Shown here piece by piece: positions 6,633 to 9,048 of a stretch of 64,000 nt of DNA. The first letter of the stretch is position 1. Each line of letters begins with the position of its first letter. Origin of the DNA: Brevibacterium sp. XM4083 (GTDB lineage: Bacteria > Actinomycetota > Actinomycetes > Actinomycetales > Brevibacteriaceae); the NCBI RefSeq assembly GCF_006489205.2, contig NZ_VFYR02000001.1, positions 608,563 through 672,562 on the forward strand. Reading direction: 5' to 3'. A model generated the notes under the pieces. The model was not told the DNA's origin, made no database searches, and worked only from the letters and a program-made list of their open reading frames with translations. Position numbers and translations under genes: made by a program.

Positions 6633-7931
6633 TCACCGCGGCGGGGGCTGGACGTACCGGGATTCGTCGGGCAGCTTCGCGAGATCGTCCATGATGAAGT
6701 ACGCGATCGCCTCCCGCAGCGGGATGTCGCGCTGCCGGGCGTGGGCCATGACCCGCCGGTGCTCGGCGAACTCGTAGAAGATCTGCCCGGGTTCGAGCTT
6801 GTTCATCAGGCTCTCGGGGATCGCCCCGAAGAGCGGCTTGTAGACCTCGTCGAGCCAGATCCGCGCGGCCTCCTCCTCGCTCAGCTCCGCAGGGTGCTCA
6901 CCCGAACCGTGCGCACCCCCGGTGAACCCGGGAGCCGTCCGGTACGAGTCGAGGTCGTTGAGCATCGCCCGCGCCTGGTTCTCGTTCGCCCCGATCCCCG
7001 TCAGCCGCAGCAGGCGCCGCGAATGGTGGTTGGGTTCGACGACCTTCGGTTCGACGAGGAGGCTGACCCCGTCGAGGTCCGTCGTCACCGTGAGCTCGCC
7101 GAGGTCGAACCCGAGATCGTTGAGCCGGCGGATCCGCTCGTCGATGCGCCACCGTTCGTTGACGGAGAACTCCTCGACGCGGGTGAGTTCGGCCCACAGG
7201 CCGTTGTACGCCTCGTAGAGGCGGTCACCGGCGGCGAGGGGATCGACCGAGGCCTCGATGAGCCCGGCGGCCTGGAGGTCGAGGAAGTCCCCGGCGATGT
7301 TCGTCCTAGCGATCCGCAGATCCATCTCCCGCTGCCCGTCGGAGAGGCGGTCGTGGAGTTCTCCGGTCTCGGCATCGACGACGTACGCGGCATAGGCATC
7401 GGCATCCCGGCGGAAGAGCGTGTTCGACAGGGAGACATCGCCCCAGTAGAACCCGACGAGGTGGAGCCGGGCGAGCAGTACGGCGAGCGCGTCGACGAGG
7501 CGACCGGCCGTGTCCTCGGCCAGCGACCGGGAGAACAGCGCCCGGTACGGCAGGGAGAAGTCGAGGTGCGAGGTGACGAGCGCCCCGGGCAGGGACTCGC
7601 CGTCGGGGGTGCGGCGGCCGGTGATGTAGGCCCGCGGTTCGACGCTGGGCACGTCGAGGTTCTCGAGCACGCCGAGGATGTCGAACTCGCGCAGCGCCTG
7701 TCGGTCCTCGGTCTCCTTGATCGCGAGCACCTCGGCGCCGTTCTCGATGAACCGGACGATGTGCCGGGAGATGCCGCGCGGGATCCCGCCGATGATGTCG
7801 GCCGGCCAGTCTTCGAGCGGGAGCTCCCAGGGCAGGCCGGCCAGCGCCGCCTGGTCGGTCGGGTCGATGGCGTGGATGAGCGGGCCGGTCTCGGTCGGGG
7901 GAGCGGCCGGTGCGGGCGGGGAGCCGGCCAC
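6633..7931 (-). CDS. DUF4032 protein with a protein-kinase-like (LPS/Kdo kinase type) N-terminal domain
   Basis: 432 residues, GTG start. Kinase-like landmarks are visible: AIKE with a candidate ATP lysine (about residue 71), a Glu in ALREFDILGVLE as a possible helix-C glutamate, WGDVSLSNTLF resembling a catalytic loop (Asp and Asn), and YVVDAETGE at the DFG position. This agrees with the lipopolysaccharide-kinase-like fold; the C-terminal half (about 230-430) is DUF4032 with no known function. Whether it phosphorylates anything is not known. It starts 3 nt after the stop of the upstream ABC ATPase, so the two are cotranscribed and probably act together. No sugar or lipid gene is adjacent to name a substrate. 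Confidence 0.85.
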   Translation of the reverse strand: MAGSPPAPAAPPTETGPLIHAIDPTDQAALAGLPWELPLEDWPADIIGGIPRGISRHIVRFIENGAEVLAIKETEDRQALREFDILGVLENLDVPSVEPRAYITGRRTPDGESLPGALVTSHLDFSLPYRALFSRSLAEDTAGRLVDALAVLLARLHLVGFYWGDVSLSNTLFRRDADAYAAYVVDAETGELHDRLSDGQREMDLRIARTNIAGDFLDLQAAGLIEASVDPLAAGDRLYEAYNGLWAELTRVEEFSVNERWRIDERIRRLNDLGFDLGELTVTTDLDGVSLLVEPKVVEPNHHSRRLLRLTGIGANENQARAMLNDLDSYRTAPGFTGGAHGSGEHPAELSEEEAARIWLDEVYKPLFGAIPESLMNKLEPGQIFYEFAEHRRVMAHARQRDIPLREAIAYFIMDDLAKLPDESRYVQPPPR

Positions 7932-7934
7932 GGC

Positions 7935-8642
7935 TCAGACCTCCGGGTCGGCAGCCGAGGCGACGAGCGCCTCGGCGACTTCCGGCTTCTCCACGCCGAT
8001 GAGCCGACCGCGGTCGAGGAAGGCGATGCGGTCGCCGAGGACCTTCGCGTCCTCGAGGTTCGACGTCGCGTAGAGCGTCGTCAGCCCGAAGTCCTGCTGG
8101 AGGTCCTTGATGAGGCGGATCGTGTCGGCCTGGTGCTCGGGTACGAGGTTGACGACGGGTTCGTCCATGATGAGGACCTTCGGCTGGCGCACGACCGCGC
8201 GGGCCAGGGCGATCGTCTGCCGCTGGAGCGGGGAGAGATCACCGGGAACGGCGTCGAGGAGGTCGCGCAGCCCGATCGTCGCGGCCACGGATTCGACGCG
8301 GGCGGCGATCTCCTCGGCGGGCAGGCCGTCGACGCGGAGAGCGAACCCGAGGTTGTCGCGCACGCTCATGTGCGGGTAGAGGGCGTAGGACTCGAGCGCC
8401 AGCGTGACATCGCGGTCGTTGACCGCCGCGTGCGTGACATCGACGCCGTCGATGAGGATCGTGCCCGATTTCGGCGCCTCGAGTCCGTGGAGCATCCGCA
8501 GGATCGTCGACTTGCCCGACCCGGACGGGCCGTAGAGGACGAGGAACTCGCCGTCGTCGATGAAGAGATTGAACGGATGGACCGAGGGCGACACGGTGTT
8601 CTCATACACATGGCTGAGACCGTTCAACGACACTGTTGACAT
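7935..8642 (-). CDS. ABC-type ATPase of the MalK/UgpC lineage with degenerate transport motifs
   Basis: 235 residues with Walker A GPSGSGKST and Walker B VLIMDEP intact. The other ABC motifs depart from consensus. The Q-loop region reads ALESYALYPHM where relatives have FQ(N/S)YALYPHM, so Gln is Glu. The signature is LSPLQ instead of LSGGQ. The D-loop is VVNLV instead of SNLD. The switch His region is YATSNLED instead of YVTHDQ, so His is Ser. The C-terminal TOBE domain of MalK relatives is absent and no permease is nearby. ATP binding is likely; normal transport coupling is doubtful. First gene of the pair with DUF4032. The ATG at 8642 has AAGGAG upstream; a longer in-frame reading to 8777 lacks a site. 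Confidence 0.88.
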   Translation of the reverse strand: MSTVSLNGLSHVYENTVSPSVHPFNLFIDDGEFLVLYGPSGSGKSTILRMLHGLEAPKSGTILIDGVDVTHAAVNDRDVTLALESYALYPHMSVRDNLGFALRVDGLPAEEIAARVESVAATIGLRDLLDAVPGDLSPLQRQTIALARAVVRQPKVLIMDEPVVNLVPEHQADTIRLIKDLQQDFGLTTLYATSNLEDAKVLGDRIAFLDRGRLIGVEKPEVAEALVASAADPEV

Positions 8643-9048
8643 GCCAACTCCTTCTCCATCGATCGTGAGCAGATGATCGCCGGTACCCCGGCGGAGTTGC
8701 CCAACACCCCTCATCCTATGCGGTGCGCGCAGGGCGACGATAGGAAATTCGACACGGCGTAGAGTGATTCTCAGCACTGTGACAGGCCCCGCCCTCCCGC
8801 CTGAGGACGGGCTGAACGCGACCAGGTGCCTTGCCGCAAGTCAGGTGTCCTGCCGGGGAATCAGACGGACGGCCGTGCGATGAGGGTTGGTCCCCGCGCC
8901 GAGGTGGGGCCCGGGTGTCCCAGCCACCGTCTCTCGGGTGCGGGGCGGGGCACCCCCTGCACGGATCCGGGCACGTCTCCCGTGACGGTCGGCAGAGCCG
9001 TGACCGCGCAGTTCCCGGTGGGCGGGCCACTGACCGTACACTCGCGGT
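8643..9048. other. Intergenic region between divergent ABC ATPase and LacI genes
   Basis: 406 bp with no convincing gene. It should hold promoters for both flanking genes: ATCCTA at 8713-8718 reads TAGGAT on the minus strand, a possible -10 for the ABC/DUF4032 unit. A 13-nt imperfect duplication (AGGTGCCTTGCCG and AGGTGTCCTGCCG) lies near 8824-8855. Confidence 0.5.
9037..9042 (+). promoter_or_regulatory. -10 box of first lacI-type gene, leaderless
   Basis: TACACT ends 6 nt before the ATG at 9049 and no Shine-Dalgarno is visible. Confidence 0.6.

Follow-up and report, generated by a model that had tools for sequence, protein, structure and literature searches.

A 64,000-nucleotide (nt) stretch of Brevibacterium sp. 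XM4083 (contig NZ_VFYR02000001.1, positions 608,563 to 672,562), hereafter called the window, carries on its minus strand a degenerate ATP-binding cassette (ABC) ATPase gene followed by a gene of the DUF4032 family whose product has a kinase-like domain. In a preliminary description, these two genes were regarded as an ATP-using module that had reused an ABC fold. A non-transport, ATP-binding module still fits best, but that description overlooked where the pair resides. We find that, within a conserved gene order, the degenerate ATPase sits in the slot where relatives encode a normal, full-length sugar ATPase of the MsiK/UgpC type. The ATPase gene was assigned by motif reading and Pfam, and its motifs by motif reading together with a 63-row alignment, as follows.

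7935..8642, minus strand: degenerate MalK/MsiK-type ABC ATPase, 235 amino acids (aa), without the OB/TOBE half
8505..8531, minus strand: Walker A, GPSGSGKST, retained
8391..8393, minus strand: Q-loop position, Glu84 replacing Gln
8223..8237, minus strand: signature LSPLQ replacing LSGGQ
8160..8174, minus strand: Walker B and catalytic Glu, LIMDE, retained
8142..8153, minus strand: D-loop VNLV replacing SNLD
8061..8063, minus strand: switch position, Ser194 replacing His

Open reading frames (ORFs), Pfam matches and motifs all confirm that the gene pair is real. The ATPase keeps Walker A and Walker B and has lost the canonical Q-loop, LSGGQ, D-loop and switch His of the MsiK/UgpC type, just as first described: the Q-loop reads VTLALESYALYPH, with E instead of Q, VNLV follows MDEP, and the switch motif is YATSNL, with S for H. 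These positions were checked by alignment with a solved sugar ATPase. Pfam recognizes ABC_tran (PF00005) at 97 bits against a cut-off of 25 and gives no match to OB_MalK or TOBE, confirming that the MalK-type TOBE half is missing. By the same method, OB_MalK is present in the intact slot ATPases L148, L150 and L034 and in the ordinary ATPase L153, and TOBE_2 is present in L148, L150 and L153 and not in L034. The best named NCBIfam profile is UgpC, which matches the nucleotide-binding domain (NBD) only, at 201.9 bits; its curated cut-off of 432 bits is missed by the window ATPase and passed by the intact relative L148 (477.4 bits). When a joint model of the two proteins was submitted to fold comparison (VIA-align), the matches fell on the ATPase domain and had the NBD fold.

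The DUF4032 gene, which begins 3 nt after the ATPase stop codon, has the following features.

6633..7931, minus strand: DUF4032 protein, 432 aa, with an N-terminal WaaP/APH-like putative kinase domain and a C-terminal DUF4032 domain
7314..7781, minus strand: kinase-like domain (Pfam APH/Kdo, residues ~51-206) with K72, E82, D165, N170 and D186
6690..7199, minus strand: DUF4032 domain PF13224, residues 245-414 (Pfam)
7939..7944, minus strand: GGAGGT, resembling a ribosome-binding site, within the end of the ATPase gene and 7 nt ahead of the GTG start codon

The GGAGGT site is present in the window and in locus L002 and absent from the other five aligned sequences. The PF13224 match is strong (176.8 bits, cut-off 23.8), and those to APH (25.9 bits) and Kdo (23.5 bits) are both barely above their cut-offs. 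A profile of the DUF4032 family compared with the PDB matches the heptose kinase RfaP (6dfl, E 1.1e-5). The kinase-like motifs reported earlier for this gene are borne out by K72, E82, D165, N170 and D186, which provide the catalytic Lys, Glu, Asp, Asn and Asp in the order of WaaP/APH-like kinases and are the same in all 143 family rows. Judged by its sequence, the protein is a putative WaaP/APH-like kinase that may phosphorylate some target. Of 198 genomes sampled from the order, 188 encode a homologue of this kinase-like protein, at least two of them without a DUF4032 domain, and C. glutamicum also encodes a member of the DUF4032 family.

The context of the pair becomes apparent when DUF4032 loci are compared, and we kept 80 of 295 such loci for reading. 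All 25 that derive from Brevibacterium have a degenerate ATPase upstream. Among the 55 others, 50 hold a normal ATPase with FQNYALYPH, LSGGQ, SNLD and THD; these proteins are mostly 360-430 aa long, and a few are longer because of overcalled ORF starts. Three of the remaining loci (L029, L053, L056) hold a partial ATPase near a contig end, and beside DUF4032 in L047 and L061 no ATPase was seen. According to the preliminary description, homologues with normal motifs would have made this an ordinary transporter ATPase. Such homologues are indeed the rule outside the Brevibacterium clade, but they do not make the Brevibacterium ATPase ordinary, because within the clade the four changes are fixed, the gene is under purifying selection and it is uncoupled from permeases, as set out below.

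The association extends through the order. Out of 128 genomes scored, 111 carry an intact ATPase no farther than 500 nt from DUF4032, and at a limit of 5 kb the number is 122; the 128 are the genomes found among the matches listed, that is, the stronger ones, in both the ATPase and the DUF4032 search. Of the 17 beyond 500 nt among these matches, 11 are within 5 kb, one is farther away and five have the genes on separate contigs. Distances were scored irrespective of strand (the two genes are on opposite strands in G414 and G424, at least), G412 was entered with whichever of its four ATPase matches shares the DUF4032 contig, and Brevibacterium G002 and G056 were excluded, their matches being to another copy. 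Across the phylum the link is incomplete: an intact ATPase is found no more than 500 nt upstream of DUF4032 in 9 of 55 loci, among them all seven that belong to the same order; five of the 55 were set aside as having no DUF4032 ORF by profile. Families f17 and f46 include several loci with the ATPase at a greater distance.

Gene order was compared over 26 hand-picked loci. Ten genes, namely cysS, an rlmB-like gene, a short-chain dehydrogenase/reductase (SDR) gene, DUF4032, the ATPase, two LacI-type regulators, otsB, otsA and a serine/threonine protein kinase (STPK) gene, are identical in order and strand in the Brevibacterium loci L002, L004 and L013 and in the intact relative L148. Locus L150 shares eight of the ten, which are those within its stretch. 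Cellulomonas (L034, L046, L054) and Promicromonospora-type loci (L041, L062) keep this order minus the SDR and LacI genes, L149 (G058) has otsB, otsA and the STPK gene on the opposite side of the pair, and L063 shares the pair alone.

The altered motifs are fixed in Brevibacterium and in the other degenerate Brevibacteriaceae ATPases aligned. Of the 63 aligned ATPase rows, in which certain species are represented twice, 62 have E at the Q-loop position and one has D, and all rows have lost the second Gly of LSGGQ (to L, A or T), the D-loop Asp (to V, P, A or G) and the switch His (to S, A, E, R, K or T). Walker B D160/E161 is kept in all 63 rows and the Walker A Lys in 62. G023, which is outside these rows, has in addition lost the Walker B Glu. 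Eight further genomes show the same pattern as the alignment, and the motifs of the 45 pair-bearing genomes discussed below come from the alignment (37) and from this additional reading (8). Compared with residues fixed in the 50 intact loci, 60 sites have become fixed to a new residue (at least 95% of 26 rows), and 86 sites are the same in both sets, including Tyr13, Walker A, Walker B and Glu161.

Within Brevibacterium, the ATPase has a median ratio of nonsynonymous to synonymous substitution rates (dN/dS) of 0.138 and the kinase gene one of 0.179 (26 sequences, 325 pairs, of which 317 and 322, respectively, were usable), and the degenerate ATPase is under purifying selection. Intact ATPases share a mean identity of 0.86-0.89 with six hand-picked intact outgroups, whereas degenerate ones reach 0.43-0.50. 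The corresponding values for the kinase are 0.64-0.67 when it accompanies an intact ATPase versus 0.51-0.56 for full-length proteins beside a degenerate one, with 0.40 for the truncated kinases of G031 and G040. Because identity to the outgroups fell and yet dN/dS is low within Brevibacterium, a burst of change appears to have been followed by renewed constraint. These data bear directly on the notion that the gene is a functionless, decaying relic of a sugar ATPase. Four functional motifs and one domain are gone, most remaining permeases have another ATPase nearby, decay is further advanced in G023, and 12 genomes of the family are without the ATPase, all of which a relic would explain. However, a dN/dS below that of the kinase gene is at odds with a pseudogene and contradicts the relic interpretation for core Brevibacterium, and the 86 conserved sites include those for ATP binding, so that we give this interpretation almost no credence.

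MsiK is the established shared sugar-import ATPase, the common motor of many Streptomyces importers, and msiK is described as standing apart from the permeases in two reports (PMC6167110, PMC4890002). We searched 60 Brevibacteriaceae genomes with the MalF-type permease of the window genome (G000) as query (E up to 1e-8), and took as permease-linked ATPases the matches to the window ATPase at E up to 1e-40, a threshold that could overlook more remote ATPases in either group of genomes. The two genomes with an intact slot ATPase, G057 and G059, have 11 and 20 CUT1 permeases, respectively, and 30 of these 31 lack a MalK-type ATPase within 10 kb, which is expected of a shared ATPase. Given the UgpC profile, the distance from permeases and the many permeases without an ATPase, the intact slot ATPase is probably an MsiK in function.

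The other 58 genomes have only 59 such permeases, five of them without a MalK-type ATPase on the same contig. In G000, all three MalF-type permeases are within 10 kb of a MalK-type ATPase, and the orphan permeases that mark a shared ATPase of the MsiK/UgpC kind are absent. The MalF-type search found no permease in 14 genomes, of which eight bear the pair. Searched with a MalG-type permease (E up to 1e-5), these eight again gave no match, against 13 and 26 matches in G057 and G059. The statement that no permease adjoins the pair also holds: a scan of 91 DUF4032 loci (3-17 kb) detected the CUT1 EAA motif in none, with an imperfect sensitivity by which it missed a permease in L154. The same motif was detected in two of the three loci of the genome's other MalK-type ATPases (L153, L155), and also in L156 and L157. 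Transport therefore appears to have been lost by the Brevibacterium slot ATPase, and an ordinary transporter ATPase is unsupported given the motif loss, the missing OB/TOBE half and the permease counts. It could be proposed instead that the protein serves an asymmetric importer as its degenerate half, joining a normal MalK-type ATPase beneath a sugar permease, in the manner of transporters in which one of the ATP sites is degenerate. This is improbable, since the OB/TOBE half is missing, that imperfect scan found no EAA motif near the pair, and the pair persists in the eight genomes without MalF-type or MalG-type matches.

The distribution of the two genes over the 60 genomes indicates strong co-occurrence. 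A degenerate ATPase with the kinase is present in 45 genomes, comprising 38 of the window type, the divergent G008, G011, G030 and G033, the separate-genus G058, and G031 and G040. G057 and G059 have the kinase with an intact ATPase, G010 and G020 have the kinase alone, and G023 has an altered ATPase alone, without any kinase homologue. Neither gene is present in the remaining ten (L276-L285), where the LacI and SDR genes adjoin and resemble clean empty sites. The slot ATPase, sought by tblastn (E up to 1e-5), is missing from 12 genomes in all, although the contigs of G013 and G038 end soon after SDR. Of the 11 kinase-less genomes, five have no ATPase match at E up to 1e-40, five have normal ATPases (L156, L157, L258, L260, L261) and G023 has the altered one. 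This last gene (L259 1077-1808, L262) lies between LacI and SDR, directly beside SDR where the kinase gene is missing, and encodes a Q-loop Asp, no recognizable signature, ADDP for DEP (with loss of the Walker B Glu) and a Thr at the switch position. The protein may be in decay or may function on its own. In G031 (L147) and G040 (L146), the DUF4032 domain is absent genome-wide, and the kinase and ATPase genes persist with an overlap of 4 nt. The pair is thus usually kept or lost together, with exceptions in both directions.

We lean cautiously towards the view that a shared sugar ATPase, after losing its role in transport, persists as a partner to the WaaP/APH-like kinase, binding ATP and probably not hydrolysing it. 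The ATPase would descend from, or have replaced, an MsiK/UgpC-type ATPase that other Actinomycetes related to Brevibacterium encode directly before the DUF4032 kinase. Importers without an ATPase of their own would have vanished from Brevibacterium, leaving a few permeases that mostly have an ATPase nearby, and the slot ATPase would have shed the OB/TOBE half and the residues for ATP-sandwich dimerization, switching and permease coupling while retaining those for ATP binding. Most likely it would bind nucleotide, hydrolyse it weakly or not at all, and form a physical complex with the kinase-like protein, controlling or scaffolding its phosphotransfer.

Several observations weigh against this explanation. 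A joint AlphaFold model of the pair (pTM, the predicted template modelling score, 0.56; mean pLDDT, the per-residue confidence, 74.5) is of a quality at which no interface can be claimed. The ATPase of G033 (L145) has Arg instead of the Walker A Lys, by which ATP binding may be weakened. The co-losses may represent few events in related species. Moreover, in six sampled genomes of the large-genome, probably Streptomyces-like family f6 no such ATPase was found near DUF4032, and together with G010 and G020 these genomes indicate that the DUF4032 kinase does not always need the ATPase. Such cases, with the solitary ATPase of G023 and the two LacI-type regulators that adjoin the ATPase gene, would also be accommodated if the two genes were merely operon-mates and the ATPase worked outside transport without involvement of the DUF4032 kinase, for instance by regulating some other protein as MalK does with MalT. 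We consider this rather unlikely, as the kinase gene stands beside 45 of 46 degenerate ATPases, both genes are absent from the slot in ten genomes, and the two survive jointly where the DUF4032 domain has been lost.

The phylogeny is a further point on this adverse side. Sixteen degenerate ATPase rows group together (support 100/99) on a long branch of ambiguous attachment; the approximately unbiased (AU) test gives p 0.36 for degenerate plus intact slot ATPases and 0.22-0.26 for three rival groupings, and p 0.15 for the degenerate clade with the two Brevibacteriaceae intact slot ATPases alone. Because the tree neither supports nor rejects the grouping, we infer common descent from the slot ATPase by gene position. 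Alternatively, a different MalK-type paralogue could have replaced the slot ATPase and taken on the function that we favour above. The ambiguous long branch and the other intact MsiK-like copies elsewhere in Brevibacterium would allow for this, but the slot and its gene order are identical, UgpC is still the best named profile, and an extra event would be required. We therefore regard replacement as distinctly unlikely.

Second intact MsiK-like ATPases are encoded at another locus in G056, G002, G003, G042 and G009 (L244-L246, L248, L249). In several Brevibacterium, these second copies lie ~5 kb from a sugar permease, and in the tree they cluster with Micrococcaceae-type copies with moderate support (92/88). 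Their possible origins include transfer and an old duplication.

Upstream of the pair there is one additional feature.

8762..8781, minus strand: conserved upstream element CACAGTGCTGAGAATCACTC, ~120 nt upstream of the ATPase start

This element is present in 25 of 25 named Brevibacterium loci with 0-4 mismatches, and it was not found in the divergent relatives scanned with up to 4 mismatches. The genome holds a single copy (up to 3 mismatches), and a regulon around it was dismissed on account of this single site. An anti-phage defence system was also considered. PADLOC gives no match for the kinase, and for the ATPase a mad3 match at 67 bits that is generic (ordinary L153 scores 92.8 and L148 scores 94.4), and this candidate was dropped.

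A full-text literature search for DUF4032 found no paper, and a search for a lipopolysaccharide-kinase-type gene beside MsiK did not find the pair, with subscription journals mostly outside the coverage of both. One listing in PMC7143038 includes a Bifidobacterium longum "lipopolysaccharide kinase", BL105A_1910, among mouse-gut-induced genes.

The preservation of an apparently pump-dead ATPase beside a kinase-like protein suggests that there is a second common job unrelated to transport. It is possible, although we would stop short of calling it probable, that across actinobacteria the shared sugar ATPase acts with the DUF4032 kinase as a general regulatory pair, of which Brevibacterium, having lost transport, retained the regulatory arm alone, with the degenerate ATPase as a dedicated nucleotide-sensing subunit of the kinase. 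In such a pair, the state of the ATPase would be read or set by the kinase. Brevibacterium could then be viewed as a natural separation-of-function experiment in which transport was lost and the partnership was kept. If this is true, a sugar-import ATPase would here have become a regulatory subunit, and the pair would provide a direct handle on a possible link between sugar uptake and a kinase signal in Actinomycetes, where the kinase-like family is widespread in the order and usually found beside a sugar ATPase of the MsiK type.

Comparison with known systems reveals both kinship and divergence. The degenerate ATPase has the NBD family and fold of MsiK/UgpC, with UgpC as the best profile, and it stands apart from permeases in the slot of an intact UgpC-type ATPase, a comparison that is profile-based and made at the family level. 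Unlike MsiK and UgpC, it lacks the OB/TOBE half, the Q-loop Gln, the signature Gly, the D-loop Asp and the switch His, it scores 202 bits versus a cut-off of 432, and few permeases without a nearby ATPase are left for it to serve. MsmX of B. subtilis is reportedly a functional parallel of MsiK. The DUF4032 protein resembles the WaaP/Kdo (lipopolysaccharide) kinases and APH phosphotransferases in its Pfam APH/Kdo matches, its RfaP match and its catalytic residues, but differs from them in its extra C-terminal DUF4032 domain and in its Gram-positive hosts, which are not known to carry lipopolysaccharide. A further analogy for the proposed partnership is E. coli MalK, which acts on MalT as a regulator and also energizes transport. 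Both cases would join a MalK-type ATPase to a regulatory partner outside transport, although in Brevibacterium transport appears to have been lost, and the partner would be a kinase-like protein rather than MalT.
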